Assembly (NCBI GenBank): GCA_013202845.1
Contig: JABMPT010000011.1
Coordinates: 55,478 to 119,477 of the forward strand
DNA: 64,000 nt
Direction: 5' to 3'
Source: Candidatus Woesearchaeota archaeon
GTDB taxonomy: Archaea; Nanobdellota; Nanobdellia; Woesearchaeales; GCA-2686295
Shown: one piece after another, positions 606 through 59,372 of the stretch
How the letters are laid out: each line of letters opens with the position of its first letter
How positions within the stretch are numbered: the stretch's first letter is position 1
Notes under the pieces: generated by a model
The model's input: only the letters and a program-made list of their open reading frames with translations
Told to the model about the DNA's origin: nothing
The model's database searches: none
Translations under genes and position numbers: made by a program

Positions 606-3293
606 TTATACCTCGAATCCTGTTATCATTAAACCACTAGTAGAGTTCATTTCTACCCTTATAATCTTACCTGATGTGTCATAAACGAATCTTTTCACTT
701 GGTCATTCTCATCCTTAACAGTTATTGTTGGAAGACCATTATAGCTTCCATACAAGTACTGGATGTCCGCTCCATTCGGCAGAATCTTCTTCTTCACCTT
801 ATTCAAAGGATCTGGATAGTATTGATACTCTGTGAAAGATGTTCCAGCTGATCCTGTATAGTAATTCCCACTTGTTGAACTCTCAAACGGTTGGTACTCC
901 CGATACTTTCTTCCAACCTTATCATATTCTACGATGGCAACTATCCATGTTGAACCTTCCTTTTTTCGCTGTGTTTGAACAACTTTTCCCCAACCATCCG
1001 TGAATTCCTTTACTTCGGAATACACACCTGAAGATATCTTTGTTTTAGTCAGTTGCCAGTTAGGATTATTGCTACTCTCATAGTCATGATAAACATATTC
1101 TCTTGAAGGAGAGTAATATGAGTCGCCTTCATCCACGACTTTCTCAAGTCTTAAGTGACTATCATAGTAGTAATTGATTGTTTTACCATTCTCATCAGTT
1201 ATATTAGCCAATAAACCGTTATCATAATACTTTTTCACCCATGCAGGATTGCCATCAGATCCATACTCTTGGTTCCATCCATGAGAAGGTAATTCTTTCG
1301 AATTATATCTTATAAAAACATTGTTGCCTGAACTGTCTTGTGTCTCTAATGGGTTACCATAATCATCGTAAGAATTAACAGAAGCAACAATATGCAACTC
1401 ATTATTATCAACTACTTCATCGAAATCCGCATCTAACCAGCTCTTTGTAGATGATAAAAAAATCCTGTTTCCAACCCAGAAGCAACCAAGGTTATATTTC
1501 TTTATTGCTTGACAAGCTGATTTTCCATGAGAACTACAAGAAACAATTTCACCTGTTCCCTGAGACCCATCCCAACCACAAGCATTCACATTAATTATAT
1601 CATTTGCATCAGTGATTTCAGAGCATTGGTTATTCCTAAGCCTGCCCATACAATAACCTTCTCCAGAACCAAAGTCAGAGTATTCCATCACAAGATAACT
1701 TTCAGTCTCACCGATATCATCCCAACCGTCATAGATCCTGTGAGTATCTATAAGACTGAACATGTGAGCAGATTCTATTGAAGAGTCAGTCTCGTAAACT
1801 CTTGTTATTCTATCAGTTTTATAATAAACCTGATTACCATCTGAGATCACTTCAGTTATATGATTAGGCGAACCTGTTTTAGCATCTGTTCCTCTATTCA
1901 ATATTTGTACTTTATAATTTCCATCAGGTAAATTATTATATCCATATGTAGTGTAGTAAATATTGTTTATTTCATCAATGTTCATAGTTCCGGATGCAAC
2001 ACCAGAGAAGTAACTGTTTGCATCGTAAGCTGAAAAAATAAGAGGTTCATCAGGATCATCCCTAAACAAAGGATTCTTGCCTAGAAGTTTCATACCGCCA
2101 AAGAACCACTTTAAATTCTCATCAGTCGAATAAATCCTGTTTGTCTCAGCAAGCAACCTTTCTTTGCCAGAAAGAATCTCATCTGAATAAGTCTCGACTT
2201 TGTATTCCAACCCCCTCTTCCAAAGAGCGCTGATTGCCGCAGAGCTAGCTAGTAGATTGTAATCCCTTGGCGTATCCATAGGAAAATAATCCTCTGCAGG
2301 AGTGTCAATTGCTCCATCTGTGTTCTCAGGAGTGCTATCAGTTGTCGTAAAGTAATAAACCTGATAACCGTTGTCATCACCAACCCTCTTAACAACACGG
2401 TTGTAGAGCACACCTCCACTTGTTTGTTCACCACCTGTGTGACTTGGCCTTCTCAAGTCTTCTTCTTCACGTATGCTCTTACTGAAAGGAACAATGTCTA
2501 TCGCTCCTGATGAACGCACACAGCCCATTTCAGGGTCATACATTTCGTAAGAATAATAAGTAGGGATACAGTCACCCATACCATTACAATCAACCTGGCT
2601 ACTAACCCTCAAACCGCCACCATAATTACTGCCAGATATTAGACTACAAGCGTTTGTGCCATCACCATCATTCCTTAACTGCAGATAATAGTTTTTAGAA
2701 ATCGGGTTGACAGGTGACGCCTCATCCCCTCTGGAAGTGTACCACTGATCCACATCATAATGCCAAACAGTAGTAGAACCACTTGGCCAAGTCACCTTCT
2801 TAAGAGTCCATGCATCAGCAGCATCTTTTATATAAGAAAGATAATCAAAAGAACCAGAACCCCAGTCTGTTTGCCAAGAACCAGGAGATGCATGGTCAGT
2901 CTCATCACAGGTAGGACAGTACATTCCAAAGCTATCAACCTTTGTCTTGTTATAACCGAAATTGTTGCTGCAGCTTCCTAGTGGCTGGTTTCCTTGAGTC
3001 AGTGCGTAACAAATCTTTGAAGTGCCAGGATTAGAGTCATGATCATAACAACTGTATGGATAACAATCCATAGATGTCTGACATGGCACAAACCGGTCCA
3101 TATTACAAGTGTATGAGTAATCAATGTACTCCTCAATTACATTACCACTAGCATCTTCAACTTGTACAGAGCAATTACTACTTGCTTTGCAAAGTCTAAT
3201 AGTGTCTTCAGCAGTTATATTACATCCTGAAAGCACTAGCAAAACCACTAATAATACAATCATCAGATTCTTGCTTGTATTTCTTTTATTCAT
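606..3293 (-). CDS. YD-repeat (RHS-like) putative lipoprotein
   Basis: An 895-residue exported protein. The N-terminus has a lipoprotein-like signal ending LVLSGC, so the mature protein may be lipid-anchored through Cys; this lipobox reading is inference. Residues about 30-130 are Cys-rich. The last ~250 residues contain degenerate YD repeats (YYYDSHLRLEKV, VEYDKVGRKYREY, FVYDTSGKIIRV), the hallmark of RHS/teneurin shells. It lacks the RHS core domain, which lies in a separate gene further upstream (5299-6426). The ATG at 3293 was chosen over a TTG at 3299 because it leaves the same 2-base gap (TGA-AA-ATG) seen at neighbouring junctions. The organisation suggests one part of a multi-subunit YD-repeat shell on the cell surface. 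A polymorphic-toxin role is possible but no toxin domain is seen here. Confidence 0.8.
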   Translation of the reverse strand: MNKRNTSKNLMIVLLVVLLVLSGCNITAEDTIRLCKASSNCSVQVEDASGNVIEEYIDYSYTCNMDRFVPCQTSMDCYPYSCYDHDSNPGTSKICYALTQGNQPLGSCSNNFGYNKTKVDSFGMYCPTCDETDHASPGSWQTDWGSGSFDYLSYIKDAADAWTLKKVTWPSGSTTVWHYDVDQWYTSRGDEASPVNPISKNYYLQLRNDGDGTNACSLISGSNYGGGLRVSSQVDCNGMGDCIPTYYSYEMYDPEMGCVRSSGAIDIVPFSKSIREEEDLRRPSHTGGEQTSGGVLYNRVVKRVGDDNGYQVYYFTTTDSTPENTDGAIDTPAEDYFPMDTPRDYNLLASSAAISALWKRGLEYKVETYSDEILSGKERLLAETNRIYSTDENLKWFFGGMKLLGKNPLFRDDPDEPLIFSAYDANSYFSGVASGTMNIDEINNIYYTTYGYNNLPDGNYKVQILNRGTDAKTGSPNHITEVISDGNQVYYKTDRITRVYETDSSIESAHMFSLIDTHRIYDGWDDIGETESYLVMEYSDFGSGEGYCMGRLRNNQCSEITDANDIINVNACGWDGSQGTGEIVSCSSHGKSACQAIKKYNLGCFWVGNRIFLSSTKSWLDADFDEVVDNNELHIVASVNSYDDYGNPLETQDSSGNNVFIRYNSKELPSHGWNQEYGSDGNPAWVKKYYDNGLLANITDENGKTINYYYDSHLRLEKVVDEGDSYYSPSREYVYHDYESSNNPNWQLTKTKISSGVYSEVKEFTDGWGKVVQTQRKKEGSTWIVAIVEYDKVGRKYREYQPFESSTSGNYYTGSAGTSFTEYQYYPDPLNKVKKKILPNGADIQYLYGSYNGLPTITVKDENDQVKRFVYDTSGKIIRVEMNSTSGLMITGFEV

Positions 3294-3295
3294 TT

Positions 3296-5296
3296 TCAAT
3301 ATTCAAAACTTGTTCTTTTACAGTTCGCTCCATTTGCGTCACAAACCTTAACATTTTTCAAAGTGTAAACTCCTCCATCAGGATTATTAGTAACTTCATT
3401 TCCAGGAGTTCCAGGCTTCAAATAATACATATTACTTGTTGAAGTTCCACCATTGAATTTTACAACTCCCATCGGCACTAAAGAACTGTCTCGCGCATAC
3501 AAAGTGATAGTTGTCAGACGATAAGGATAATCAACACTACCAACATCACTATTACAATAATGTTCTCCACAAGTAGTGCTTTCACAAAACTGTTCTGTAA
3601 CAGGATTAAAAGAGTGCGGACCTCTGTAAATTGTTTTGGACTGGGAAGATTCGGTGCCATCACACATCCACCCCGCTTCTAAATCATCATAACATGAACT
3701 GGTACCACAACACGGAATAGAGCCATCACAGTCACTTCCACCACCCAAACAAATAACGACTACCATATTAGTGCTCCAAGCAGAATAATGTTCTCTTCCA
3801 TCATAACGCTCCTCAATAGTGAATTCAGCTTTATGAGTCGGAGTGATTATTGCCTGTAAGTAACTCTTGTCCATCACACCACCAGATTTCATTCTCCAAC
3901 CATCATCACTGCCATCATGCTCACTCATCCATTGCCAGCTGCCATCATAGCTGTTGCCAAAGTTAAAACCACAATTAGGACTATCTTGAGCATACCAATG
4001 AGTCAAATCATACCTGAAAGCCACCCAAGAACCCTTATTGCTACTTTCAGATGCATCATAAGGATTAAGATCACCATTCCCATCAACGTAATCAGAACTC
4101 AGCATGGCCACTAATTTCCAAGACATAGTATGAGAAGCAACATTCAAATTTATATCATCTAACTTGTAAAACTCATCTCCTAGATCTTCATCATACTTTG
4201 CATAACTGCCTGAAGTCCATTGCTTGATGATGCTGCCGCTAATGGATGGATCGCCAAACACGTATCTCTGACCAGAAGAATCAGTTACCACAAAAGACTC
4301 TATAGATTTACCGTCACTACTCATGATGTGCTCAACATCTGTAGCTGGAACCTCAGGAGTGGATGCTAAGAAGAATTTCGCGTCTGTAATCCCAGAAAAC
4401 CTTGCAAGAGTATCCTTTTGTGCAAGCACCAGACTTCCTGATACAGGACCGCTCAAAGTCCAAGTGTCAGGTGCTCCTCCATCGTGAGCAATGTAGTTAT
4501 CATCAGCATACTCCTCTTGGAAAGTAGGATCATGCAAGAACCCGTCCATGGTACGAATCTCCTCATAGTTGCCACTTCCAGGAAAACTCTTACCCTGACC
4601 CTGGACATAAGAAGCAGCCATTGAAACAGCGCTTATAGCCATACCAGCGCATCCTCCAAAAGCCATCAACTGACCTGCAGTATTCATAATGTCTTTAAGG
4701 AACGAAAGGGATTTCAAGTTGGCTAACTCACTAACACCCATAGTGGCTAGTGTTAAAATACCTTTCTGATACATGTGTCTGGCTAAAGTCGCTAAGTCAA
4801 CACCTCCTTGATAATAAGCCATTGATACGGCTTCAGATACAATACTCCAGAGAGCTAAAGCCCAGTACTGTTGCGCAATAACTAAAATTATTGTTATTAT
4901 AAGAAGAATCACAGCAACCAAGTAATCCTCCACAAACCTCTGCCACCACCCTCTAGTATCCTCCGTCTGAGCTAAGTGCTTGAGAAATATTTTACCATCC
5001 TTGACATCATCCGGGAACTCCAGCATACTTCTGGAAACAGCTCCTGAATCAAGCGAGAACCCCAAGCCAACCCAGCCACTGCTTCGTTCCATTTTTATTC
5101 CAGCGCCAGAATAACTAAGGATTATAGGGTAATCTTCCCCCTTAACTCCAGGAACAGTCAAAAGAGGAACAGTCAAACCCATATCACCGGTTGAAGCAGC
5201 TACTTGAACACCTGCAGCGACATCTCTAATAACCACTATACTAAACACTAAGTAAATCATGAACAACGCTGTCAACGGCAATATTTTCTTATTCAT
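3296..5296 (-). CDS. SpvB/TcdB N-terminal-like RHS component with membrane segment
   Basis: A 666-residue protein with an N-terminal hydrophobic signal (residues ~5-30). Residues ~30-85 match the start of SpvB/Tc-B and Bacteroidetes RHS proteins: GDMGLTVPLLTVPG, then YPIILSYSGAGIKM and SGWVGLGFSLDSGAVSRSM. In known RHS/Tc proteins this module begins the chain that carries the YD shell. Two hydrophobic segments (about 125-165 and 195-235) interrupt the pattern, followed by a beta-rich region and a Cys-rich patch near residues 540-600. The gene ends 2 bases before the YD-repeat gene and starts 2 bases after the RHS-core gene. The ATG at 5296 replaces a TTG at 5314 that would overlap the upstream gene. 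The three genes together appear to be one split RHS system. Confidence 0.75.
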   Translation of the reverse strand: MNKKILPLTALFMIYLVFSIVVIRDVAAGVQVAASTGDMGLTVPLLTVPGVKGEDYPIILSYSGAGIKMERSSGWVGLGFSLDSGAVSRSMLEFPDDVKDGKIFLKHLAQTEDTRGWWQRFVEDYLVAVILLIITIILVIAQQYWALALWSIVSEAVSMAYYQGGVDLATLARHMYQKGILTLATMGVSELANLKSLSFLKDIMNTAGQLMAFGGCAGMAISAVSMAASYVQGQGKSFPGSGNYEEIRTMDGFLHDPTFQEEYADDNYIAHDGGAPDTWTLSGPVSGSLVLAQKDTLARFSGITDAKFFLASTPEVPATDVEHIMSSDGKSIESFVVTDSSGQRYVFGDPSISGSIIKQWTSGSYAKYDEDLGDEFYKLDDINLNVASHTMSWKLVAMLSSDYVDGNGDLNPYDASESSNKGSWVAFRYDLTHWYAQDSPNCGFNFGNSYDGSWQWMSEHDGSDDGWRMKSGGVMDKSYLQAIITPTHKAEFTIEERYDGREHYSAWSTNMVVVICLGGGSDCDGSIPCCGTSSCYDDLEAGWMCDGTESSQSKTIYRGPHSFNPVTEQFCESTTCGEHYCNSDVGSVDYPYRLTTITLYARDSSLVPMGVVKFNGGTSTSNMYYLKPGTPGNEVTNNPDGGVYTLKNVKVCDANGANCKRTSFEY

Positions 5297-5298
5297 TT

Positions 5299-6426
5299 TT
5301 AACCAAGTCCACAAGCCTCCTTAGCACTATCTTTTATTGAAGATTTCGACTCTAACGCATCAAGATTATCAAAGTAGGCCATTATCTCACCATCTTGTAG
5401 CTTTAGCGCTTCTTCTCCTGGTATAGTATTAATAACATCACCAGGACGTAAAGTTGCATCCTTATTATGCACATATCCAGTTCCTTCAGCATTAAGTGCT
5501 CCTAACACTTCTTCCCTAGAATAAATCCCAATAACCTCCCCTGCACGATAATGCACAGTTATTGAATCAGGATCCAAAAACCTGTCATACTCAACCCAAC
5601 TACCAAAGCCCTCGGAGATAGTTCGTGCTTCAAAAGGACCTGAAGGACTGCCGGATATCTTGACTCCAAATCCAAAAGGTTGTTCATTAACAGTTGGAAG
5701 ACTTGAAGGAGTAACTGATACAGGAGGAGTGGTAAATCCAGTTGTTGAAGACACAACTTGTTTCGGAGGTACATATGGCAATCTAATACCTGCAAAAGCC
5801 AACACACTAGTACTAGGAGAATCTCTATGAGGAGCTCCTCCAGTCTCATGAGAAGGCAATACTGAAGATGACTGTGTAGGTGATGGTGCTGAACTCAAAG
5901 CAGGCGGCGTATCCATTGCTAGTGATGAAGGATATAATTCCTCTGCTCTCTTAACCCTGTAAGGATTGGTTGTCTTAATATAAGGAGTGTATTTCTCTGG
6001 CAGAAACTTGCTCTTATGGCTAATAGGGATTATGTACCTGGCTGTTTCAGGATTGTAAGCACCCATGTATAGCTGTGATTCTTCATCAAAATCAAGCATT
6101 TTGTATTTGTATATGCTGTCCATTTGATAGGAAGATATCTTACCATAAGGATAGTATTCTTGCAACGCTACTGGCTGACTAGGATCACCATCCTGCTTTA
6201 TCAATGTCCTAACATTTCTCTGGAAATCCAATTGATACAAGTATGCATCATTATCAACGTCAACCTTCGCAACTAATTGATTGTTTCCTCTAATGTAAGA
6301 AACACCTGGTTGCGATGGACGAGCACTAACTACTGAAACCAATAAACAAAGCATTAATAATACTATAAAACCTGACAAAAACATCTTAGTTCTTCCGTGC
6401 TCTCCAATATATCTCTCAGTCACCAT
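5299..6426 (-). CDS. RHS core-domain protein with variable C-terminal region
   Basis: A 375-residue exported protein: signal segment at residues ~18-37, then an RHS-associated core-like domain at ~45-150. Its order is the family order: YLYQLDFQRNVRTL (as YLYHLDHLGSTRAL), YYPYGKISSY, then DFDEESQLYMGAYNPETARY (as DEETGLYYYRARYYDPETGRF). A Pro/Ser/Thr-rich linker (~165-260) leads to a ~110-residue C-terminal domain I do not recognise. In typical RHS toxins the core is followed by a variable toxic tip, so this tail is the candidate effector. Here the core is in the first gene of the operon, not the last. ATG 6426 fits a TATA box centred near 6450 (leaderless); an upstream TTG at 6435 does not. 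Confidence 0.75.
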   Translation of the reverse strand: MVTERYIGEHGRTKMFLSGFIVLLMLCLLVSVVSARPSQPGVSYIRGNNQLVAKVDVDNDAYLYQLDFQRNVRTLIKQDGDPSQPVALQEYYPYGKISSYQMDSIYKYKMLDFDEESQLYMGAYNPETARYIIPISHKSKFLPEKYTPYIKTTNPYRVKRAEELYPSSLAMDTPPALSSAPSPTQSSSVLPSHETGGAPHRDSPSTSVLAFAGIRLPYVPPKQVVSSTTGFTTPPVSVTPSSLPTVNEQPFGFGVKISGSPSGPFEARTISEGFGSWVEYDRFLDPDSITVHYRAGEVIGIYSREEVLGALNAEGTGYVHNKDATLRPGDVINTIPGEEALKLQDGEIMAYFDNLDALESKSSIKDSAKEACGLG

Positions 6427-6445
6427 AATTATCAACTATTCAATC

Positions 6446-37398: not shown

Positions 37399-38025
37399 TC
37401 AAGTAACTATTCCTCCCAAACCAAACCAGCTCATGAACTGAACAAACCAAATCTTTACATAGCCAATAAAAGGAATTCTCAGAACAGCCTTTCCAATGTA
37501 TTGCTCTTTGGAAACATTTCTCTCATCTAACTCACTACTTACTATGATGTTAGGATTATTATCTCCTTTCGTGGTAAAGTAAAGCTCACCACCGGTATCT
37601 CTGATGTGGATAACCCTGTGAATGATGGGATAAGGCTTTTTGGCGTGATACACAATGACATCACCAATCTCTATTTTTTCAGGATCTGTACCTATTAACA
37701 CCATTATGTCTCCCTTGTTAAAACCGTTTATGAATGAGAACTCACGAAAATCAATATCAGTTATGTTGCTCTTCAGATAGAAATCCTCATTAGCATTCCA
37801 CCAATCATAGAACTTGGCATTATGCTCCATACTGTCACTAACAACAGCTACAACAGGGTAAGTAGTTCCAAAGATTGCACCCATTCCAGGATAAACCAAG
37901 AATTTAATGATAATAAAAGCCAAGATTACATTAACTAATAAACTAAGAATTGATTCATCGTGCCAAATAAAATACCAAATCTTACCAGTAGTAGTCGTTG
38001 GTTTTTTGACTTTCTTCTTAGACAT
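37399..38025 (-). CDS. Signal peptidase I, archaeal/SipW type
   Basis: 208 residues with an N-terminal transmembrane segment (~28-52) and a C-terminal hydrophobic stretch. The catalytic Ser is in VVSDSMEHN (near 63). The position held by Lys in bacteria is His, in PIIHRVIH (near 133), and the conserved Asp is in TKGDNNP. It cleaves signal peptides of exported proteins such as those at 1-15 kb. Confidence 0.9.
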   Translation of the reverse strand: MSKKKVKKPTTTTGKIWYFIWHDESILSLLVNVILAFIIIKFLVYPGMGAIFGTTYPVVAVVSDSMEHNAKFYDWWNANEDFYLKSNITDIDFREFSFINGFNKGDIMVLIGTDPEKIEIGDVIVYHAKKPYPIIHRVIHIRDTGGELYFTTKGDNNPNIIVSSELDERNVSKEQYIGKAVLRIPFIGYVKIWFVQFMSWFGLGGIVT

Positions 38026-48216: not shown

Positions 48217-49515
48217 ATGAATAATAAACATGATTTCTTCAGAAGAATAGTAAACAAAAAAGAACTACTAACAAAAGCAGCAAGTAAATTTGGAACTCCT
48301 CTATATTTCATTGATAAAGAAGAAATAGAAAAAAATATTGATAGAATAAAGACTGCCTTTATGTCTAAATATAGAAAAGTAAAGATTTATTATCCTTATA
48401 AAACAAATGATTTACCATATATTTGTAGAATAATTCATAAGAAAAAAATAGGTAGTGAGATTAGCTCTCTTCTAGAACTTGAATTAGCTAAAAAACTTGG
48501 GGTGAAGGATATCATATTTAATGGCCCTGGTAAAACAGAAGAAGAAATAATTTCTGCAATAGAAAACAAAGTACTAATTATTTGTGATAGTAAAGAAGAG
48601 ATTGAAAAAGTTAATTCTATAGCTAAGAAACTTAAAAAAAATATTGGCGTGGGAATTAGGATTCAACCAACAAATATTGAAGATAATTTATGGAATAAGT
48701 TTGGAATAACAATTAAATATTTACATAAAGAAGTAGAAAAAGAATATTCAAATATTGAAATTGAAGGATTCCATTTTCATATTGGGACTCAAATCAGAGA
48801 TCATAAAGTTATTTGTAAAGCAATAAAAAATGTTGGTAATGCTCTAAAAAACATAAACAAGAATAAACTTAAAAGTTTTAAACATTTCAATATAGGTGGG
48901 GGGTTTGGAGTAGAATCAATGAGTTTCATGGGTAAAAAAGATTTTTTCGTAAAATATCTTGCTAGAAAGAATCCTTTTTTCATAAAATATATGAAAAGAA
49001 AATTTTTAACTCAAAAAACAGAAAACATTAATCTTATAGCTTCAAAAATAGTTGATAGCTTTAAAAAAAATATTTGCTTACAATTTCCTAAAGAAATAGA
49101 ATTAAGAATTGAACCTGGAAGATTTATTGTTAATTCATCAACAAGTTTGTTATTAAAAGTTCTTTACAAGAAAAAAAATTCAATAATACTTAATGGAGGC
49201 ATAAATCTTGTTCCAAATATCATTTATACTTATCATCCAATTATCAATATCTCAAAACCAAGCATTAAAACAACTCATGAAACAATCTACGGACCTCTTT
49301 GCTTAACCGATGACTTTTTTGGAAACTACTACTTTGGGGAAAAATCCAAAACAGGTGATTTGTTTTGTATATCCAATATTGGTGCATATAATATCAATGT
49401 TTCTTGGCAATTCATAAAACCAAAAGAGAAAATAGTTATTTTGGAAGAAAATAAGCTTCTTAAGATTAGAGAAAAAGAAGATTTTAACTATCGATATAAA
49501 AGAGATACTTTTTAG
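48217..49515 (+). CDS. PLP-dependent decarboxylase, LysA-like (fold III)
   Basis: 432 residues. The PLP lysine is in YYPYKTNDLPY (near 68), followed by GSEISSLLELELA, the His of GFHFHIGTQI (near 190), the glycine loop NIGGGFG (near 225), and the acidic region RIEPGRFIV. GPLCLTDD (near 353) holds the Cys/Asp of the second active site, and IGAYN the Tyr. DAP decarboxylase makes lysine, but the sequence is divergent and near a Ddl-like gene, so another amino acid, or a cell-surface/peptide role, is possible. Confidence 0.8.
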   Translation: MNNKHDFFRRIVNKKELLTKAASKFGTPLYFIDKEEIEKNIDRIKTAFMSKYRKVKIYYPYKTNDLPYICRIIHKKKIGSEISSLLELELAKKLGVKDIIFNGPGKTEEEIISAIENKVLIICDSKEEIEKVNSIAKKLKKNIGVGIRIQPTNIEDNLWNKFGITIKYLHKEVEKEYSNIEIEGFHFHIGTQIRDHKVICKAIKNVGNALKNINKNKLKSFKHFNIGGGFGVESMSFMGKKDFFVKYLARKNPFFIKYMKRKFLTQKTENINLIASKIVDSFKKNICLQFPKEIELRIEPGRFIVNSSTSLLLKVLYKKKNSIILNGGINLVPNIIYTYHPIINISKPSIKTTHETIYGPLCLTDDFFGNYYFGEKSKTGDLFCISNIGAYNINVSWQFIKPKEKIVILEENKLLKIREKEDFNYRYKRDTF

Positions 49516-50597
49516 TTCTTTTTTAAAGATAATCTTATTAGTTTTAAAATTAAATCTTCATATGAGACATTTGAATATTTTGCAGAAAGAGTAAAAATGC
49601 TTTTTTCAAAAATACTTGGAAGAGTGTTTATTTCTAAAAAAAATATTTTTTCATTCTTATCAATAATAAAATCAATTCTTGAGAGGACTTGACAACCAAC
49701 TAACCTATGAATTTTTAATGCTAAAGATTGAACTTTTTTATATAAGTCAACGTCAATATTTGAATGAAATACTTTTACAGAATCATATTTCTCTAAGTGT
49801 TTTGAATAAGTTGAAAAGAAACTTTTATTTGAAGATTTCTGGACTTCAATTATAGATAATGCTGAAGGTTCATTATTTCCTAATACACCAATGCTTAATT
49901 CTCTTCCTTTAACAAATTCTTCAATTAAAACATTATCTTCATACATAAAAGATTTCTTTAAAAAAAATTTAAGTTTAAAAAAAGTTTCTACAAAATAAAC
50001 ACCCATACTTGAGCTTGAATGAACAGGTTTTATTATTAAAGGGAATTTTAAATCAAAGTTATCAAATTTTTTATTCAGAAAATCATATTTTGACAATTTA
50101 TAGTACTTTGGTGTTAAAACATTATTTTTCTCAAGTAGAACATTGGATAAGTATTTATCAAAGCCCATCATTGTAGATTCAATATTTGATCCTAAATAAG
50201 GAATTTCTAACATATTAAGAATAGATTGAACACTCCCATCAATTTTATGGTCTAAAGAAGATATGATAAAACAACAATTAATCTTATTTTGTTTAATATT
50301 ATTAAAAAAACTCCTATTAAAATCAATTATTTTAACATTTAAACCCATAAGTTTCATCTTATAACAAATTCTTTTTCCTTGCCTTAAAGACACACCTCTT
50401 TCAACAGATTCTCCTGAAGTGATAATGCCCATTCTCAAATGTTTAAGATTGGTTTTAACATCCAATTTACTTCTTTGAAAAATAAAGAATTTCTCAAAAA
50501 AAATAGTGACTAACCATTGAATAAAAATAGTGCATTTAATAGAATAAAAATGAATTCCTAAAATAAATTTATAAGTAAGGCTGATTAAATTTTTCAT
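49512..50597 (-). CDS. D-alanine-D-alanine-ligase-like ATP-grasp protein
   Basis: 361 residues. The Ddl core starts at about residue 56 (MGIITSGESVERGVSLRQGKRI) and shows FPLIIKPVHSSSSMGVYFV (~185), LIEEFVKGRELSIGVLGN and RIDFIIDKNEKIFFLEINTLPS. The ~55 residues before it are hydrophobic and basic and may anchor it to the membrane; a start at residue 56 is an alternative. Archaea lack murein, so a Ddl-like ligase here probably joins amino acids in another product. The 3' end overlaps the LysA-like gene by 4 bases. Confidence 0.82.
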   Translation of the reverse strand: MKNLISLTYKFILGIHFYSIKCTIFIQWLVTIFFEKFFIFQRSKLDVKTNLKHLRMGIITSGESVERGVSLRQGKRICYKMKLMGLNVKIIDFNRSFFNNIKQNKINCCFIISSLDHKIDGSVQSILNMLEIPYLGSNIESTMMGFDKYLSNVLLEKNNVLTPKYYKLSKYDFLNKKFDNFDLKFPLIIKPVHSSSSMGVYFVETFFKLKFFLKKSFMYEDNVLIEEFVKGRELSIGVLGNNEPSALSIIEVQKSSNKSFFSTYSKHLEKYDSVKVFHSNIDVDLYKKVQSLALKIHRLVGCQVLSRIDFIIDKNEKIFFLEINTLPSIFEKSIFTLSAKYSNVSYEDLILKLIRLSLKKN

Positions 50598-52431: not shown

Positions 52432-53250
52432 ATGAAAACATGTAATATTTGCGTTGCCGACAAAACAGTAAAAATCAAATCTACAGATACAAATATCAAT
52501 CTGATAAAGAAAGAGATGAAAGATTTTCTAACTTCAAAGAAATCAAAGTATGAAATTATAATATCCGAGTCAAAAAAGAAAATAATAAATAAAGTTGTTA
52601 AGAAAAACGGTAAAATTATAGAATTCTGGATTCCTGAAGGAATAAAAAGCATTAAGGACAGATATATCATAAAAACTCCTCATATGGATGGAGAGATATA
52701 TGAACAAAAAGCTTTTTTTATAGATAAAGAAAACAAAAACATATTTCTTTGTATTAGAAACGCCATAAGAATTTGTTATCTTTTATGGTTTTTGAAAGAT
52801 CTAATGGCAATGCATGGAGCAGGCATTGAAAGAAATAAAAAAGGTTATTTATTTTGTGGTCCTCCTAAAGAAGGAAAAACAACTATAGCAAAACAAGCAA
52901 AAAAAGTGATTAGTGACGAGTGCATTTTTGTGAAAAGAGTAAAAGGAAAACTCTATATGTACGGAACTCCATTTGGAGGAGAGATAAAACCTTTAAATAA
53001 AAAGATTCTACTGACAAAGATTTTCTTTATAAAAAAATCAAACAATACTGAAATAAAAAAACTTTCTAAATCAGAGAAATTCCTCAAAATAATAGAGAAT
53101 AATCATTTATTTAATAAAATCATTTGCAAAGAAGAAAGATTTTTAATGAAAAACATATTTTACAAAACAAAAAAAACATTTGAAGAAGTTCTTGCGTATG
53201 AACTAGAATTTAGTTTGGAAGAAGATTTTTGGAGGAAAATAGATGAGTGA
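52432..53250 (+). CDS. HprK-like kinase of a RiPP-type cluster
   Basis: 272 residues. The C-terminal half matches HPr kinase/phosphorylase: MAMHGAGIERNKKGYLFCG (near 125) with the family His, Walker A GPPKEGKTTIAK (near 143), and KVISDECIFVKR (near 158), the second acidic motif. Short HprK-like kinases beside PqqD-like proteins and nucleotidyltransferases are known from lasso peptide clusters, where they phosphorylate the precursor. The next gene overlaps by 8 bases. Proposed role: phosphorylation of the peptide at 56148-56249 (inference). Confidence 0.8.
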   Translation: MKTCNICVADKTVKIKSTDTNINLIKKEMKDFLTSKKSKYEIIISESKKKIINKVVKKNGKIIEFWIPEGIKSIKDRYIIKTPHMDGEIYEQKAFFIDKENKNIFLCIRNAIRICYLLWFLKDLMAMHGAGIERNKKGYLFCGPPKEGKTTIAKQAKKVISDECIFVKRVKGKLYMYGTPFGGEIKPLNKKILLTKIFFIKKSNNTEIKKLSKSEKFLKIIENNHLFNKIICKEERFLMKNIFYKTKKTFEEVLAYELEFSLEEDFWRKIDE

Positions 53251-54571
53251 TATAACCATTGTAAATATGAATGTTAGAAGACAAACATCTAAAGAACTTC
53301 CAACAGGTGCACTCACTCTTGTATCTGTGTTTGAAAATGAAGGAATAGAAGTTGATTTTAAGGATTATGCAGAAAAAAAAAGGAATCTAGACTTGTTTAA
53401 TATCAAAAACACATACAATTATTTGAGGAATACAAAAAGATTTTTACTAATAAGTTATTTAGCAAACATGCGACCAAACTTATTACTTGCTTTGGAAAAA
53501 CTTAAGGAAACAAATCCAGAAAAGAAGATAATCCTTGGAGGATATATACAAGAAAAGACTGCAATACATATGATTGAACAATTCCCATTTATAGATGTTA
53601 TATATTTAGGTTATGCAGATAAAACAATTTGCGAAGTATACAAAAGATTAAAGGATGGACAAAGCTTAAGAGGAATTGGATCAATAGTTTTCTCAGAAAA
53701 TAATAGAATAATAATAAGTAAAAAAATAAATAGAACAGATATAAACATACCAAAACCAGCATACCATAAAATAAAAATAAAAGATTATGATACCGTGTGC
53801 ATAAGTGACTCTGTAGGATGCCCTTATAAATGCACCTTTTGCGCAACACCAACAACTATGGGATCAAAAATATATTACTCCCCAATAAGTCAATTAAGAA
53901 AAGAGATAACTACTCTTTACGATAAAGGAGTTAAAAAAATCAACTTTATCGGAGAATCATTTGGAATAAATAAAAAAAAAGTAAATGAAATATGTAATTT
54001 TTTCAATGAAGAAAAAATGGATTTAAAATGGAGCTGTTATGGAAGAATAAACTACATGACTAAAGAAATATTGCAAAAAATATCAAAAGCAGGCTGCTAT
54101 AACATATTTTATGGTGTAGAATCTGGTTCAAACAAGGTACTTAGAACAATTAAAAAAGGATTCAACACAACAGAAGCTATGGAAAAAATTATTGAAACAA
54201 AAAAATACATAGAAGGAGTCCGCCTAAATTTAATGTGGGGATATCCATTTGAAACAATGAAAGACTTCATGAAAACAATATTGCTATCAGCCAAATTAAA
54301 TGCCATGGGAATGGACACAGGATTATGGTTGTTATCACCAGTTACAGACACTCCTATCTATGAAAAATACAATCACAGGATGAGATTCTCACCAGATAAG
54401 ATATGCATAAGATATGATTATAAGGAAATTAAAAAAGACGAAAAGCTAAGAAAGATTATAAGCAATCATCCTGAAATATTCACAGATTTCTATCATTATC
54501 ATTCAAAAAACATAGATAAAAAAGCAGCAATGATAAAAATAACATCTGGAGGTAAGAAATATGAAATCTAA
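53243..54571 (+). CDS. B12-type radical SAM enzyme A of the RiPP-like cluster
   Basis: 442 residues. N-terminal B12-binding-like domain (1-~170: LPTGALTLVSVFENEGIEVDF, IILGGYIQEKT; no DxHxxG seen), then the cluster GCPYKCTFCATP (near 193), FIGESFGINKKK, IFYGVESGSNKVL and MWGYPFETMKDF. A strong GGAGG lies before the ATG. It is clearly paralogous to 54833-56131 (for example both share 'KLKETN.EKK.ILGG'). It probably methylates or cross-links a peptide or lipid substrate; the link to the peptide comes from the neighbouring RRE gene. Confidence 0.85.
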   Translation: MSDITIVNMNVRRQTSKELPTGALTLVSVFENEGIEVDFKDYAEKKRNLDLFNIKNTYNYLRNTKRFLLISYLANMRPNLLLALEKLKETNPEKKIILGGYIQEKTAIHMIEQFPFIDVIYLGYADKTICEVYKRLKDGQSLRGIGSIVFSENNRIIISKKINRTDINIPKPAYHKIKIKDYDTVCISDSVGCPYKCTFCATPTTMGSKIYYSPISQLRKEITTLYDKGVKKINFIGESFGINKKKVNEICNFFNEEKMDLKWSCYGRINYMTKEILQKISKAGCYNIFYGVESGSNKVLRTIKKGFNTTEAMEKIIETKKYIEGVRLNLMWGYPFETMKDFMKTILLSAKLNAMGMDTGLWLLSPVTDTPIYEKYNHRMRFSPDKICIRYDYKEIKKDEKLRKIISNHPEIFTDFYHYHSKNIDKKAAMIKITSGGKKYEI

Positions 54572-54836
54572 CAACATAATCTACAAAAAGAGTACAACTG
54601 TTGAATACAACATCTTAGATGAAGAAGCAGTCATTCTCATACCTAAGAAAGGCGAGTTTTTTTCACTTAACAAAACAGGGACAAGAATATTCAAACTCAT
54701 AAATGGAAAGAATGATGTTAAAACAATAATAAAAAGAATATCTAAAGATTTCAACTTAAAAGAAGAAAAAGCAAAAAAAGATGTGATTGAATTCTTGAAC
54801 CAATTAAAGGAGAAAAATATTCTAAAAACAAAATGA
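54561..54836 (+). CDS. PqqD-like RiPP recognition element (RRE)
   Basis: 91 residues, the stand-alone PqqD size. The pattern fits: VEYNILDEEAVILIPKKGEFFSLNKTGTRIFKLI, where a beta hairpin is followed by 'lN.tG..i..li.g', then the winged-helix DVKTIIKRISKDFNL and a C-terminal helix ending LKEKNILK. RREs bind leader peptides of RiPP precursors and deliver them to tailoring enzymes. GGAGGT sits before the ATG. It overlaps both flanking radical-SAM genes (11 and 4 bases), so all three are made together. Confidence 0.87.
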   Translation: MKSNNIIYKKSTTVEYNILDEEAVILIPKKGEFFSLNKTGTRIFKLINGKNDVKTIIKRISKDFNLKEEKAKKDVIEFLNQLKEKNILKTK

Positions 54837-56131
54837 GTGATGCTACACTTATAAGCATGCAAGTTTCAGAAAGAAACTTAAAACATGTTCCTACCAACAC
54901 ACTTCAAGTTCTATCAATATTTGAAGATGAAAATATAAACATTGAGTTCAAAGATTACAACTTAGAGAAAGGCAATCTTTATGATGTTGATAAAATCTGT
55001 AATTTCTTAAAAAAATGTGAAGACTATTTGTTCCTAACTTCAGTTATAAGTGTACTACCAAATCTTCTTCTCGCTTTGAAAAAACTTAAAGAAACAAATC
55101 AAGAAAAGAAAGTGATTCTAGGAGGACACATGGCCCCAGAATTAGCAAAATATATTATCAAACATTTCTCCTTTGTAGATGTAATAACTCTTGGTTTTGC
55201 AGATAAGCGCATATGTGAAGTTTATAGACGATTAAAGAAAGGAGAAAGTTTAAAAGGAATAAACGGAATAGTTTTTTCTGAGAATAATAAAACTATTATC
55301 ACAGAAGGAAAAGTCAATGCTTCTAATGTTTCTAAACCTGCATTTGATAAGATCAATATGCAAGATTATGACATAGCTTACATAAATGACTCGATAGGCT
55401 GCCCATACAATTGTACTTTCTGCAACATTCCTATAATGCCAGGAAGAAAATTATATTACACGCCAATAAAGCAACTAAGAAAAGAGATAACCACTCTTTA
55501 TGATAAAGGAATAAAGAACATTATGTTAAGCGGAGAAGCATTTACTATAAACAAAAAAAGAGTTATAGAAGTCTGTGACCTGTTTTCAAAAGAAGGGAGA
55601 GACATCAAATGGAGATGTTATGGAAGGGTAAATCACATGAATGAAGAAATGCTACAAAAGATGTCAAAAGCAGGTTGTTATAGAATATTTTATGGCATAG
55701 AATCAGCTTCGAATAAAATCCTTAGAAGAATAAAAAAAGGATTCACAATAAATGAAGCTTTTAAAAAAATCTCTATCAGTAACAAATATATAGAAGAAGT
55801 TGTAGCAAGTATGATGTGGGGGTTTCCATTCGAAACAATGAAAGATTTCAATAAAACAGTTTTGTTCATTATGAAGTTAAAAAACATAAAAGTAACTCCT
55901 GCACTCTTGCATTTGGCTCCTCAAAGAAACACGTCCCTTTATAATGAATATAAAAAAAGAATAAGATTTTCAAAAGATTTGATATCAAACGTGACTTTCA
56001 ATTATGAAATACTAAAAAGAAAAGAATTAGCAACTCTAATACAATCTCATCCAGAAGCGTTCTTGGAATTCCATCATTATCATTCTAACAATCTAAGAAA
56101 AAAAGCAAACATGATAAATTATTTAGACTAA
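54833..56131 (+). CDS. B12-type radical SAM enzyme B of the RiPP-like cluster
   Basis: 432 residues, paralogue of enzyme A. B12-binding-like domain, then GCPYNCTFCNIP (near 190), LSGEAFTINKKR, IFYGIESASNKIL and MWGFPFETMKDF. Both copies end in a similar 'HPE.F..FHHYHS.N..KKA.MI' tail, which suggests an extra conserved C-terminal domain. The 3' end faces the precursor gene across 16 bases containing a run of nine A. Differences from enzyme A in the B12 domain and after the cluster suggest that the two act on different residues or steps. Confidence 0.85.
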   Translation: MSDATLISMQVSERNLKHVPTNTLQVLSIFEDENINIEFKDYNLEKGNLYDVDKICNFLKKCEDYLFLTSVISVLPNLLLALKKLKETNQEKKVILGGHMAPELAKYIIKHFSFVDVITLGFADKRICEVYRRLKKGESLKGINGIVFSENNKTIITEGKVNASNVSKPAFDKINMQDYDIAYINDSIGCPYNCTFCNIPIMPGRKLYYTPIKQLRKEITTLYDKGIKNIMLSGEAFTINKKRVIEVCDLFSKEGRDIKWRCYGRVNHMNEEMLQKMSKAGCYRIFYGIESASNKILRRIKKGFTINEAFKKISISNKYIEEVVASMMWGFPFETMKDFNKTVLFIMKLKNIKVTPALLHLAPQRNTSLYNEYKKRIRFSKDLISNVTFNYEILKRKELATLIQSHPEAFLEFHHYHSNNLRKKANMINYLD

Positions 56132-56134
56132 GTT

Positions 56135-56143
56135 AAAAAAAAA
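56135..56143 (-). terminator. Oligo-T terminator after the precursor peptide gene
   Basis: Nine T in a row on the minus strand, four bases after the TGA of the precursor ORF. Archaeal RNA polymerase stops at such runs, so the precursor mRNA should end here. Confidence 0.55.
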
Positions 56144-56147
56144 TTAA

Positions 56148-56249
56148 TCAAGCTTCAGTTCCAGTAGTGGTGCAAACCTTGTTTGCTAAATCTGATAAAT
56201 TACCAATCTTCTTGATAGTCGGCTTCTCATAAGAATCTTTCTTAATCAT
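56148..56249 (-). CDS. Candidate RiPP precursor peptide, 33 residues
   Basis: A Lys-rich leader contains YEKPTIKKIG at residues 7-16, an exact match to YxxPx[L/I]xxxG, the motif that lasso-type RREs read. After it come LSDLA and the C-terminal part NKVCTTTGTEA, with one Cys, four Thr and a penultimate Glu. It is read on the minus strand from ATG 56249 to TGA 56148. A TATA element (AATTTAAATAGT) lies ~29 bases upstream and an oligo-T run follows the stop, so it looks like an independently expressed, leaderless gene. It sits between radical-SAM enzyme B and a SPASM-like radical-SAM gene, and the matching RRE is 1.3 kb away. The modified residues and cleavage site are unknown. Confidence 0.72.
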   Translation of the reverse strand: MIKKDSYEKPTIKKIGNLSDLANKVCTTTGTEA

Positions 56250-56271
56250 TTCAATATTATAAAAGCTTTTT

Positions 56272-56284
56272 ACTATTTAAATTT
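56272..56284 (-). promoter_or_regulatory. TATA box of the precursor peptide gene
   Basis: AAATTTAAATAGT on the minus strand, centred about 29 bases before ATG 56249. It overlaps nothing but the few bases before the upstream gene's stop (56287), so the precursor may be expressed both alone and by read-through. Confidence 0.45.
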
Positions 56285-56286
56285 TT

Positions 56287-57318
56287 TCAATTAAAAAGCA
56301 TCTCATAAGCCTTAACTAATTTCTCTTTAATGCTAGTTTTTTCAGCAGATCCAATCAAACCAACCCTAGTACAAATCTTGCTGTCTTCCTTCAACTTAGA
56401 AAGTTTTGAAGTATACAAATCTTTTAAATTAGCAGAGTTAATATTTCCAAGATTAAAACAACACGTTTTAACATCGCCATTACACAAAATTGTTAATCTT
56501 TTAAAAGGAAGAAAACAATTGCCTTTTCCAGATATTTTTAAACCTAAATCAGAAAAATAATAATCAAAAATAAAATTCAGATTGTTATATGAATTAATAA
56601 CATTAAAACCGCTTCTTTTTAATTTTTTTATTTTATTTAAACATTTGAGTAATAATTTTTTATTTTTTATCCATAAATCGTAATTATCATATCTTTTCAT
56701 CAAATTGACATTATATGTAAGTGGTCTAAAAATAACTCCGTCAAAACTCTCTTTTTTGATAAAAGATATGATTTGATTAATTTCTGAAAGATTTTTATTG
56801 TGAATTATGATTCTTGCAAAGATTTTTGTTTTAGAAGAAAGTTTTTCTCGAGAAATTAATAGATTTCTAACACCACTAACTATTTTTTTGTAATTATGTC
56901 TTTGCATTAAACTATTTTGAGTTTTTTCTGTACCATAAAAAGAAATGATTATTTTATCAAGATTAATACTCATCAATTGATTTGCTATTTTTTTCGTTAT
57001 TAAAGAAGCATTAGTTGACAAACTTGTAACTAAGCCAATATTATTTGAATATTTAAGTATTTCAAGACAATCTTTATTCAACAAAGGTTCTCCACAACTA
57101 AAATCAATAAAAACAGTTCCCAACCAATTTTTTATCTGATTCAAAAGATGCTTCCATTGTTCTAATGATAAAACACTTTTTTTATTTTTATCTGCATGAC
57201 AAAAAATACAATCAGCATTGCATTTGTAAGTCAAATCAACAAGAACAATCCTCGGTCTTTTCAAAAATATTGATTTGCTAATATTATAAATCTGTAACAA
57301 ATTTTTTAAATAAGACAT
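56287..57318 (-). CDS. Radical SAM protein with SPASM/twitch-like C-terminus
   Basis: 343 residues. Cluster LTYKCNADCIFCHADK near residue 32 (CX3CX2C), SCGEPLLN (a variant GGE motif, near 80), LSTNASLI. C-terminal auxiliary-cluster region: GNCFLPFKRLTILCNGDVKTCCFN then Cys in SKICTRVG, the SPASM-like pattern with at least four Cys. SPASM enzymes typically modify peptides (sactionine, quinone, ether bonds). The precursor ORF starts 38 bases after its stop, on the same strand, making it a direct candidate for core modification. Confidence 0.82.
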   Translation of the reverse strand: MSYLKNLLQIYNISKSIFLKRPRIVLVDLTYKCNADCIFCHADKNKKSVLSLEQWKHLLNQIKNWLGTVFIDFSCGEPLLNKDCLEILKYSNNIGLVTSLSTNASLITKKIANQLMSINLDKIIISFYGTEKTQNSLMQRHNYKKIVSGVRNLLISREKLSSKTKIFARIIIHNKNLSEINQIISFIKKESFDGVIFRPLTYNVNLMKRYDNYDLWIKNKKLLLKCLNKIKKLKRSGFNVINSYNNLNFIFDYYFSDLGLKISGKGNCFLPFKRLTILCNGDVKTCCFNLGNINSANLKDLYTSKLSKLKEDSKICTRVGLIGSAEKTSIKEKLVKAYEMLFN

Positions 57319-57360
57319 TATTTAACCAATATAAGAATTATCTTTATTAATCTTACTAAA

Positions 57361-58419
57361 ATGAACGACGAAGAAAAACTATTATTAAACATTCTAAAAA
57401 CTAGAAAAAACAGATTTACTTATTTTAACATAGAAGATATTAATTGGGGAAAATTTTTGAAATTAAACAAATATCATTTTACTTGGTATAGATCACATAA
57501 TTATTTAAAGGAAAAAGAAGAAACACCTGAAAAAGTAAAAAAAGAATTAAAATCATTAACATTAAGCAATTCTAAAAGAAATCTAGTTCTTTTAAGCGAG
57601 ACAAAGGAACTTTGTAAAAAATTAAAAGAAAAGAAAATAGATTTTATTTTGCTAAAAGGATTGTCTATAATAAAGCAAGCAAAAGAAAATGAATCTTCTA
57701 GATTTATGGTTGATATTGATTTGTTAGTAAAGAAAAAAGAATTAGAAAAAATAACGTCTGCATTAAAAGATTATAATATAATCAAAACTAACAAAAATTA
57801 CTGGCGAAATTGGAAAAAATATTATGGACATCATGAACCAGTTCTTGTAAAAAGTAAAAATAATCAAAAAATATTATTAGAAATTCATACAAATATCGTC
57901 CCAAACATCAATCCTTTTAAAATAAAAAAAGAATTATTGTGGGAAAATATTTCAGAAATAAGATTAAAAAAAGAAAAACTAAAGAGTTTCAATCTAGAAC
58001 TACAAATAATATATTTATGCATACAAACTTCTTTTCATAACAAATTCTTACAAGGACTAAGAAATTTAAAAGACATAGACTTAATAATAACAAATAATAA
58101 AATAAATTGGGGAAGAATAGTTTCTCTAAGTCTAGAAACAAAAACTCAAGAATTTGTGTATGTAACATTAAAAACAACCAAAAAACTTTTATCAACAACA
58201 ATTCCTACAGATGTGTTAACAAAATTAAGAAAACAAAGTAATTTTAGACAAATAAAAAGAATAGAAAAGATTGCTAGAAACGTTTTAAAGATTCACAATT
58301 TTCCAAAATTAATAGATTGGAAGTATAATATAATACTTGCAAAAGATTTTAGGACAAAGTTAAAAGTGATAATTATAAGTGTAAAATTTTTAATAGAAAA
58401 AATTATTCAAAATAAATGA
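57361..58419 (+). CDS. Nucleotidyltransferase family protein (NTP_transf_5-like)
   Basis: 352 residues. The central motif FILLKGLSIIK followed by SRFMVDIDLLVKKKEL (near 90-130) matches the nucleotidyltransferases found with HprK-like kinases in lasso peptide clusters (the 'LKG ... R ... DIDLLV' pattern, with the Asp pair binding metal). HEPVLV and LEIHTNIVP follow (near 155-180). It is likely to attach a nucleotide or phosphate-linked group to a peptide or sugar. It overlaps the next radical-SAM gene by 4 bases. Confidence 0.8.
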   Translation: MNDEEKLLLNILKTRKNRFTYFNIEDINWGKFLKLNKYHFTWYRSHNYLKEKEETPEKVKKELKSLTLSNSKRNLVLLSETKELCKKLKEKKIDFILLKGLSIIKQAKENESSRFMVDIDLLVKKKELEKITSALKDYNIIKTNKNYWRNWKKYYGHHEPVLVKSKNNQKILLEIHTNIVPNINPFKIKKELLWENISEIRLKKEKLKSFNLELQIIYLCIQTSFHNKFLQGLRNLKDIDLIITNNKINWGRIVSLSLETKTQEFVYVTLKTTKKLLSTTIPTDVLTKLRKQSNFRQIKRIEKIARNVLKIHNFPKLIDWKYNIILAKDFRTKLKVIIISVKFLIEKIIQNK

Positions 58420-59372
58420 AATTTCTAAAACTATTTTATAAAAGTATTGGGAAAAAACCATTCAAACTAACTATAAAAGTTAATAACTTTTGTAATAGCC
58501 ACTGTAAAACCTGTAATGTTTGGAAAAAAAAGAAAACAAAAGAATTATCTATAAAAAATTATGAAAAAATAATCAATAAATTAAAGAATAACATTACATG
58601 GATAAGTTTAGTTGGTGGAGAACCATTTTTAAGAAAAGATATAACTGAACTTATAAACTATCTTTACAAAGAATTAAAGAATTTAATTTATGTAGATATT
58701 TCAACAAATGGATGGAATCCTAAATTAATATACCACAAAATAAACAAAATACTAACCAGTAATAAAAAAATCCATGTTAGTCTTGGCATTAGTATTGATG
58801 GACCTAAAAAAATCAATGACTTTATTAGAGGTAAACAAGGTTCATTTGATAAAGCTATTCAAACATACAATCTTATTAAAACAATAAAGAAAAACAATTT
58901 CTCACAACATATTAATTACACACTTTCAAATTTAAATGTTGGAGAATTCAGTAGATTCTTAACTGAGATGAAAAAAAACAACATATCTATACAAAATATT
59001 AATGTTGGATTTCAACATAAAGGATTCTTTTATGAAGATTTCTCAAAAACTAATTACGATTCAAGAAAAATTTTAGATGAAACTAGAAATATTATGAGGA
59101 AAAAGATATTTTCTTTTGGAATAATTAATCCTAAGGAAGTATTTAATATATATTTCTTATGGCGAATAAAAAACTATCTAAGAGGCTCAAAGATAAAAGA
59201 TTGTCAAGCAGGTACAAAATCATTATTTGTTGATTATAATGGTAAGATAAAACCTTGTATTCAATGGAACAAAAATATTGGAGATATAAAAAAAGGAAAT
59301 ATAAAAAAAGTAGATACAAAGAATTGTCCTGGATGCTGGACGTTTTGTGAAGTCTCAACTAATTCAATTTAA
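58416..59372 (+). CDS. Radical SAM protein with SPASM-like C-terminus
   Basis: 318 residues. Cluster VNNFCNSHCKTCNVWKK near residue 27 (CX3CX2C), SLVGGEPFLRKDI (near 68), GISIDGPKKIND (near 127). C-terminal Cys region CQAGTKSLFVDYNGKIKPCIQW and CPGCWTFCEV, the SPASM pattern. Translationally coupled to the nucleotidyltransferase. A peptide substrate is plausible from the family and the neighbours. Confidence 0.84.
   Translation: MKFLKLFYKSIGKKPFKLTIKVNNFCNSHCKTCNVWKKKKTKELSIKNYEKIINKLKNNITWISLVGGEPFLRKDITELINYLYKELKNLIYVDISTNGWNPKLIYHKINKILTSNKKIHVSLGISIDGPKKINDFIRGKQGSFDKAIQTYNLIKTIKKNNFSQHINYTLSNLNVGEFSRFLTEMKKNNISIQNINVGFQHKGFFYEDFSKTNYDSRKILDETRNIMRKKIFSFGIINPKEVFNIYFLWRIKNYLRGSKIKDCQAGTKSLFVDYNGKIKPCIQWNKNIGDIKKGNIKKVDTKNCPGCWTFCEVSTNSI

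Follow-up and report, generated by a model that had tools for sequence, protein, structure and literature searches.

What kind of product, if any, is made by a compact gene cluster in which an HprK-like kinase, radical SAM enzymes, a nucleotidyltransferase and a RiPP recognition element (RRE; RiPP, ribosomally synthesised and post-translationally modified peptide) are brought together in a Candidatus Woesearchaeota genome? The cluster is located at positions 52432..58419 of a 64,000-nucleotide stretch of DNA (the window), which is part of one contig (C11) of a 1.20 Mb assembly of 14 contigs that is 91% complete. A sequence-only reading had described the gene set and its order as they are indeed observed, and had proposed a new archaeal peptide pathway belonging to no described class. 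The present analysis indicates that the cluster likely represents a real, recurrent and likely archaeal peptide-modification system, with a core resembling that of the linear polyphosphorylated peptides (LPP) of Popov et al. 2026 and with radical SAM additions. On balance, the evidence somewhat favours a RiPP-like pathway, likely LPP-like, in which extra radical chemistry acts on a 33-residue peptide. Thus, the RiPP-like nature of the cluster, its apparently archaeal setting and its kinship to the kinase, nucleotidyltransferase and RRE set of phosphorylated lasso peptides stand, while the core itself has already been published as LPP, namely a kinase, a nucleoside triphosphate (NTP) transferase, an RRE and a YxxP peptide without a cyclase (PMC13381572, from excerpts of which the account of LPP given here is drawn). 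What is likely new is the occurrence of an LPP-like pathway in what are likely DPANN archaea, where the tails are tiny and often lack Ser and where four of the five loci include radical SAM enzymes.

The sequence-only reading had expected the RRE gene to keep company with kinase, nucleotidyltransferase and small peptide genes in other genomes, and this expectation was borne out. PqqD, the family to which the RRE belongs, was detected in six of 371 genomes drawn from the phylum (five over the cut-off) and in six of 352 genomes of the order (all over the cut-off), the two draws yielding nine distinct genomes. All six PqqD genomes of the order encode an HprK-like kinase and a PF14907 nucleotidyltransferase within 4 kb of the PqqD gene, and a peptide was found in five of the six. 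Of the 352 genomes, 12 have PF14907 over its cut-off; nine of these exceed 50 bits, including all the PqqD genomes (6/6 PqqD genomes versus 3/346 others, Fisher p 3e-11). The kinase profile matched 21 of the 352 genomes at E <= 0.001, and at full length in five, all of them PqqD-positive and represented by the same sequences that built the profile; the other P-loop matches in the order reached at most 32.1 bits and lay mostly around the P-loop. In the sixth PqqD genome (G012, locus L010), the kinase beside PqqD is HprK-like by inspection and gives a weak profile match of 22.6 bits. Counts over five loci refer throughout to the window, L009 (G368), L017 (G405), L018 and L019; loci L010 to L013 stand outside these counts because they lack either a separate peptide or a kinase. 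Using the same hidden Markov models (HMMs), no kinase or PF14907 was detected at L011 (G148), L012 (G315) or L013 (G344), all outside the order, and of these the PqqD contig of G315, at only 3.6 kb, cannot be judged. Conversely, PF14907 occurs without PqqD in G091, G390 and G522, the contigs of the latter two measuring 5.6 and 9.2 kb, respectively. A further phylum-level search gave one distant match, at a contig end, among ten genomes, and in a wider archaeal search PqqD was found in none of the five genomes behind five archaeal loci.

The discrete RRE (54561..54836, plus strand, 91 aa) matches PF05402 at 63.5 bits, and its closest solved chain is the lasso RRE TbiB1 (5v1u, E 1.1e-5). LppB grips its leader through N33, which holds the backbone at the proline, and D70, which bonds to the tyrosine (PMC13381572); the window RRE carries N37 and D74 at the same spacing of 37 residues. 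Alignments revealed that the LppB-type Asn is kept in all five archaeal RREs and the Asp in four, the fifth being that of L018, where Ile occupies the Asp position and the peptide leader carries Phe instead of Tyr. This paired change is a single event and is only suggestive. None of the three PqqD proteins from loci lacking a kinase has both residues, L011 and L013 keeping the Asn only and L012 the Asp only, and in the fused RRE of L010 both are missing. The top NCBIfam match of each of the five RREs was a lasso-type PqqD model, every one scoring below its cut-off. Two further arrangements were observed among the PqqD loci. In L010 (9809-10252, G012), the RRE is fused to a leader-like tail of approximately 40 residues bearing YETPRL, beside a more distant HprK-like kinase, a GT2-like gene and PF14907, an arrangement that may represent an RRE-precursor fusion. 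In L013 (9260-9358 and 9270-10591, G344), a small ORF (open reading frame) with YEEPEI overlaps the start of the PqqD gene, after which comes a SPASM-type radical SAM gene, and this possibly amounts to a second, two-enzyme archaeal peptide system.

The candidate precursor peptide of the window (56148..56249, minus strand, 33 aa) has the leader YEKPTI, which conforms to YxxPx[L/I], and a short C-terminal tail containing one Cys and four Thr residues. A single Lys-rich YxxP/FxxP peptide ORF of 29-36 aa is present at each of the five loci. With the leader Tyr or Phe counted as position -17, as in lasso peptides (PMC10368454, excerpt), the predicted tails comprise approximately 10 residues in the window, 12 in L009, 4 in L017, 5 in L018 and 12 in L019, and Ser or Thr is present in all of them. 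One Lys-rich motif ORF was observed per region in 5/5 regions, as compared to means of 0.15-0.5 in composition-matched Markov shuffles of the five locus regions, genic space included. In the intergenic space of 80 control loci of unmatched base composition, motif ORFs numbered 16 per 1,055,172 bases, i.e. 0.18 per 12.2 kb. No such motif ORF was found in positions 1-48000 of the window, and one further motif ORF, poor in Lys, is present in the window region and in the L017 region each. Additionally, TATA-like elements were located by sequence reading upstream of all five peptide genes. In the window, this element (TTTAAATA, 56274-56281) and a 24-nt spacer to the precursor ATG together span 56250..56281 on the minus strand, suggesting that the precursor may have its own leaderless transcript.

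The predicted peptide Ser/Thr kinase (52432..53250, plus strand, 272 aa) gave an AlphaFold2 model with a pLDDT of 93.2, and a fold search with this model ranked PEPCK and HprK structures first, thus assigning the protein to the HprK/PEPCK fold. By sequence, the best 60 of 424 matches to solved structures were all of the P-loop type apart from one PEPCK, and the best NCBIfam match was a weak one to ScmC, considered below. In an alignment of the window protein with 45 of its 46 matches, H128 and K149 are invariant and D162 is conserved in at least 90% of the sequences. Elsewhere, HprK-like domains were observed in other settings: L017 (9716-11338, G405) encodes a single 540-aa protein consisting of a GT2 glycosyltransferase domain and an HprK-like kinase, a hint that phosphorylation and glycosylation may be coupled, and L147, L148 and L149, from other genomes of the order without PqqD, encode HprK-like proteins of approximately 250 aa that match mainly in the P-loop region (L148 also matches Hpr_kinase_C, below the cut-off).

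The nucleotidyltransferase (57361..58419, plus strand, 352 aa) is PsmN/LppN-like and matches PF14907 at 129.7 bits (cut-off 31.2), and K99-G100, D118-I119-D120 and H176 are invariant across the five loci. Among solved structures, it matched only a lincosamide nucleotidyltransferase (E 0.45). In vivo, PsmN attaches hexoses to the phosphoserine of pseudomycoidin (PMC9266682, excerpt), and deletion of lppN had no visible effect (PMC13381572). A gene for an S24/signal-peptidase-like protease is present at the cluster in G405, G368 and G461 (over the cut-off) and in G387 (below the cut-off), and in each of these four genomes it is the sole PF00717 match at E <= 0.001, a threshold at which 34 of the 352 genomes of the order have a match (p 3e-4). 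Ser, His and Asp residues are conserved in the alignment of the four cluster proteases.

In the window, the genes for the kinase, a B12-type radical SAM enzyme, the RRE and a second B12-type radical SAM enzyme form, in that order, four overlapping genes on the plus strand. Convergent to these, the minus strand carries the 33-codon ORF and, directly upstream of it, a radical SAM/SPASM gene, after which the plus strand resumes with the PF14907 nucleotidyltransferase gene and, in a 4-base overlap, a radical SAM gene of SPASM-like type. The genes for the SPASM enzymes and the nucleotidyltransferase do not share an operon with the overlapping four. The two B12-type enzymes, a (53243..54571, plus strand, 442 aa, with CxxxCxxC) and b (54833..56131, plus strand, 432 aa), are 52.7% identical and match Radical_SAM at 64.7 and 80.9 bits, respectively; the B12-binding match of enzyme a (15.9 bits) is below the cut-off. 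ApyD is the best NCBIfam match of both, at 121.4 and 144.5 bits (cut-off 750), and PhpK follows for enzyme a at 118.3 bits, also far below the cut-off. The model of enzyme b has the fold of MgmA, AprD4, CysS, OxsB and TsrM and is closest to MgmA (PDB 9ccb), a protein glutamine methylase, so that both features of B12-dependent radical SAM enzymes, the CxxxCxxC motif and the cobalamin-enzyme fold, are present. The alignments of these enzymes took in 13 of 65 matches (A3) and 38 of 65 (A5). The radical SAM/SPASM enzyme (56287..57318, minus strand, 343 aa) scores above the cut-offs for Radical_SAM (52.4 bits) and SPASM (28.5 bits), its best NCBIfam match being NirJ1/AhbC, below the cut-off, and the SPASM-like enzyme (58416..59372, plus strand, 318 aa) matches Radical_SAM at 57.2 bits and SPASM at 19.9 bits (cut-off 21.5).

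B12-type radical SAM and SPASM enzymes tailor other RiPPs. A radical SAM gene adjoins the peptide gene in four of the five loci, with a SPASM and a B12-type gene on either side in the window, a SPASM-type gene in L019 and a B12-type gene in L009 and L017, and these enzymes are read as locus-specific tailoring enzymes acting on a common core. The SPASM-type enzymes of L009 and L019 have the ranthipeptide maturase PapB as their best match, below its cut-off. As ApyD beta-methylates Tyr in a RiPP (PMC10635010, excerpt), C-methylation would, by analogy with MgmA and ApyD, be the likeliest chemistry of the B12-type pair. Radical SAM/SPASM-type enzymes were also noted in two families next to prepilin-peptidase-like genes (L009 7583-10931 and L018 445-3441), perhaps representing a pilus-associated radical SAM enzyme. 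The two enzymes concerned (L009 7583-9004 and L018 445-1767), which are 41% identical to each other and, by inspection, lie beside prepilin-peptidase-like and pilin-like genes, were rejected as members of the cluster.

With LPP (PMC13381572), the window shares a discrete RRE with the conserved Asn and Asp, an HprK-like kinase, an uncharacterised NTP transferase, a YxxP leader, the lack of a cyclase and glycosyltransferase-rich surroundings; an LppS-like protease is shared by the four related archaeal loci only. LPP clusters are embedded in polysaccharide loci and, according to their authors, confined to Bacillota, and the LPP protease set is predominantly from Bacillota (PMC13381572), whereas the window is likely archaeal. 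Furthermore, its cluster lacks an SpI/LppS-type leader peptidase, and neither an MsbA-like exporter nor any ABC exporter domain was found in the 13 ORFs of more than 200 aa plus the RRE at 46.8-63.5 kb. By PF00717, the window genome as a whole, at its 91% completeness, has no S24/LppS-type protease, and the cluster is therefore not filed as LPP, although it would work like one; the nearest signal-peptidase-like ORF, 14 kb away (37399-38025), is the only one to match a profile built here from the four cluster proteases (25.4 bits). The window peptide, of 33 aa with a Ser-free tail of approximately 10 aa, contrasts with the 45-aa core bearing Ser3 of LPP; of the LPP leader consensus YxxPxVLxHQxIxFETxxS it has YxxPxI, the remainder being absent, and the B12-type and SPASM radical SAM enzymes are additions.

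The phosphorylated/glycosylated lasso peptides paeninodin, pseudomycoidin and Bsf (PMC9266682, PMC8498205 and PMC10368454, excerpts) share with the archaeal loci the YxxPx[L/I] leader, a B1-type RRE, an HprK-like kinase and a nucleotidyltransferase, but the archaeal tail is too short for threading. A lasso peptide was rejected as the product, since the B2 protease PF13471 was found in none of the five genomes and no Asn-synthetase-like cyclase (PF00733) is encoded at the window locus, the PF00733 matches of this genome being on contig C4 only and not on C11. The SynChlorMet cassette (NCBIfam TIGR04248-TIGR04251) likewise combines an HprK-like protein (ScmC), a PqqD-like protein (ScmD) and radical SAM/SPASM enzymes; however, the window proteins score far below the respective cut-offs (ScmC 28.1 against 125 bits, ScmD 36.0 against 100 bits), and the B12-type pair and PF14907 are not among the Scm models matched. 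ApyD, of the aminopyruvatide pathway, and MgmA resemble the B12-type pair in belonging to the B12-dependent radical SAM family or fold and in methylating a peptide or protein, but ApyD includes an RRE of its own and has P450 and MNIO enzymes as partners (PMC10635010, excerpt). Searches of the open-access literature for SynChlorMet, or for Woesearchaeota together with ribosomally synthesised peptides, returned nothing relevant, and those touching archaeal RiPPs and this gene set gave no archaeal description among the matches listed, which is weak evidence; the term-matched passages of PMC8939145, PMC12710340 and PMC10105419 contain nothing on this gene set.

In the pathway favoured here, the 33-residue peptide would be the substrate, the RRE being predicted to grip its YxxP leader. 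The kinase would phosphorylate Thr in the short Thr/Cys-containing tail, the B12-type pair may C-methylate this tail, and the PF14907 enzyme may, in the manner reported for PsmN, attach a sugar or a nucleotide to the phosphate. The product would remain linear and be linked to the surrounding cell-surface glycan genes, and we infer that it is likeliest to be a linear peptide carrying phosphate, C-methyl and perhaps sugar groups.

Several observations weigh against this proposal, and some of them lend themselves to other explanations. The bacterial kinases LppK and PadeK phosphorylate Ser, and in LPP the exchange S3T abolished phosphorylation (PMC13381572 and PMC9266682, excerpts); the window tail offers Thr and no Ser, and the L017 and L019 peptides contain no Ser at all. 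In the window kinase D162 is followed by Glu, and the His-Lys-Asp-Asp set reported for lasso kinases may thus be incomplete. To these are added the missing protease and exporter and the fact that the Lys-rich filter was fixed only after the peptides had been seen. L018 has no radical SAM gene at its core, and identity between the window pair and the B12-type enzymes of three related loci is only 22-28%, so that the B12-type enzymes are tied to the peptide by neighbourhood only. Moreover, in the genome loci of the best 80 of 518 relatives of the pair, scanned at E <= 0.01 with HMMs built in this analysis, none lay near PqqD, kinase, PF14907 or S24; the same HMMs detected members on which they had not been trained elsewhere (PF14907 in L138-L140, PqqD in L176 and S24 in L139). 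The pair was consequently rejected as a marker of the system, of which the B12-type enzymes are not a fixed part. The radical SAM enzymes, of which the window island contains others at 45382, 46843 and 62426, might therefore belong to a glycan/lipid island and not act on the peptide, leaving an LPP-like kinase, RRE and nucleotidyltransferase pathway alone, as in L018, where these three and the peptide occur without an adjacent radical SAM gene. This is considered unlikely, given that the B12-type genes overlap those of the kinase and the RRE in the order kinase-B12-RRE-B12 and that the peptide gene directly adjoins a radical SAM gene at all loci but L018.

The window RRE also narrowly misses the PqqD model of pyrroloquinoline quinone (PQQ) synthesis (TIGR03859, 45.6 bits, cut-off 46), and its kinship to lasso and LPP proteins is thus not exclusive. 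An RRE and SPASM enzymes are found in the PQQ and mycofactocin systems, and tails of just 4-12 residues or so in the five loci would suit a peptide-derived small molecule or cofactor of this kind, the excised tail giving rise to a redox or signalling molecule. To our knowledge, a kinase and PF14907-type enzymes have not been reported with PQQ, and the tails vary between loci, unlike a cofactor precursor. As both enzymes have been reported with phosphorylated lasso and LPP peptides (PMC9266682 and PMC13381572, excerpts), a cofactor appears quite improbable. Alternatively, the cluster might modify glycans or lipids, with sugars as the substrates of the kinase and the nucleotidyltransferase and the small peptide present by coincidence. 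This would be in keeping with the PMT_2 and GT2 genes flanking the cluster, with the GT2-kinase fusion of L017 and with the three of nine strong PF14907 genomes that lack PqqD. The bare motif points the same way, since motif ORFs without the Lys requirement numbered 2-3 per region against shuffled means of 0.75-2.6 and hence, with genic space counted, do not exceed chance. Nevertheless, all five loci keep the leader-gripping Asn of the RRE and have a Lys-rich YxxP/FxxP peptide. We know of no role of an RRE without a peptide, and this explanation is regarded as very improbable.

The cluster lies in an AT-rich stretch at 42-64 kb of the window, reaching the contig end, with a GC content of 25% as compared to 36% in 1-42 kb. 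This stretch contains three PMT_2 genes, GT2 glycosyltransferase-like genes and at least seven radical SAM genes, and PMT_2 glycosyltransferase-like genes are found beside four of the five loci (as a raw count). The right part of the stretch (42000-64000) has gene relatives in L138 (G091), a genome without a PqqD or kinase match. At 48217-50597, a LysA-like PLP (pyridoxal phosphate) decarboxylase gene and a D-Ala-D-Ala-ligase-like ATP-grasp gene are convergent and overlapping, which is unusual beside archaeal surface genes, and at the left end of the window (606-6435) inspection pointed to neighbouring large ORFs that have YD/Rhs-like repeats and begin like signal peptides.

A more far-reaching version of the LPP-like pathway, which we regard as tentative and rather doubtful, would be a peptide class of DPANN archaea's own. 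In it, a precursor of approximately 30 residues, expressed from a leaderless transcript and bearing a lasso/LPP-type leader, would have a tail of 4-12 residues on which an HprK-fold kinase phosphorylates Thr, PF14907 adds a sugar cap and B12 and SPASM radical enzymes particular to each locus introduce C-methyl groups or cross-links, i.e. a swappable radical SAM toolbox on a conserved phosphopeptide core, serving cell-surface or cell-cell interaction. If the LPP-like reading with radical SAM additions is true, its recurrence in small archaeal genomes would extend the LPP family to another domain, and a phosphopeptide family would be tied to radical chemistry that, in the excerpts of PMC13381572, has so far not been reported for LPP. 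The cluster would also provide a compact genetic test of whether HprK-fold kinases act on peptide Thr and of what PF14907 enzymes attach to the phosphate, and uncharacterised small peptides of DPANN archaea would become candidates for surface or cell-cell interaction.

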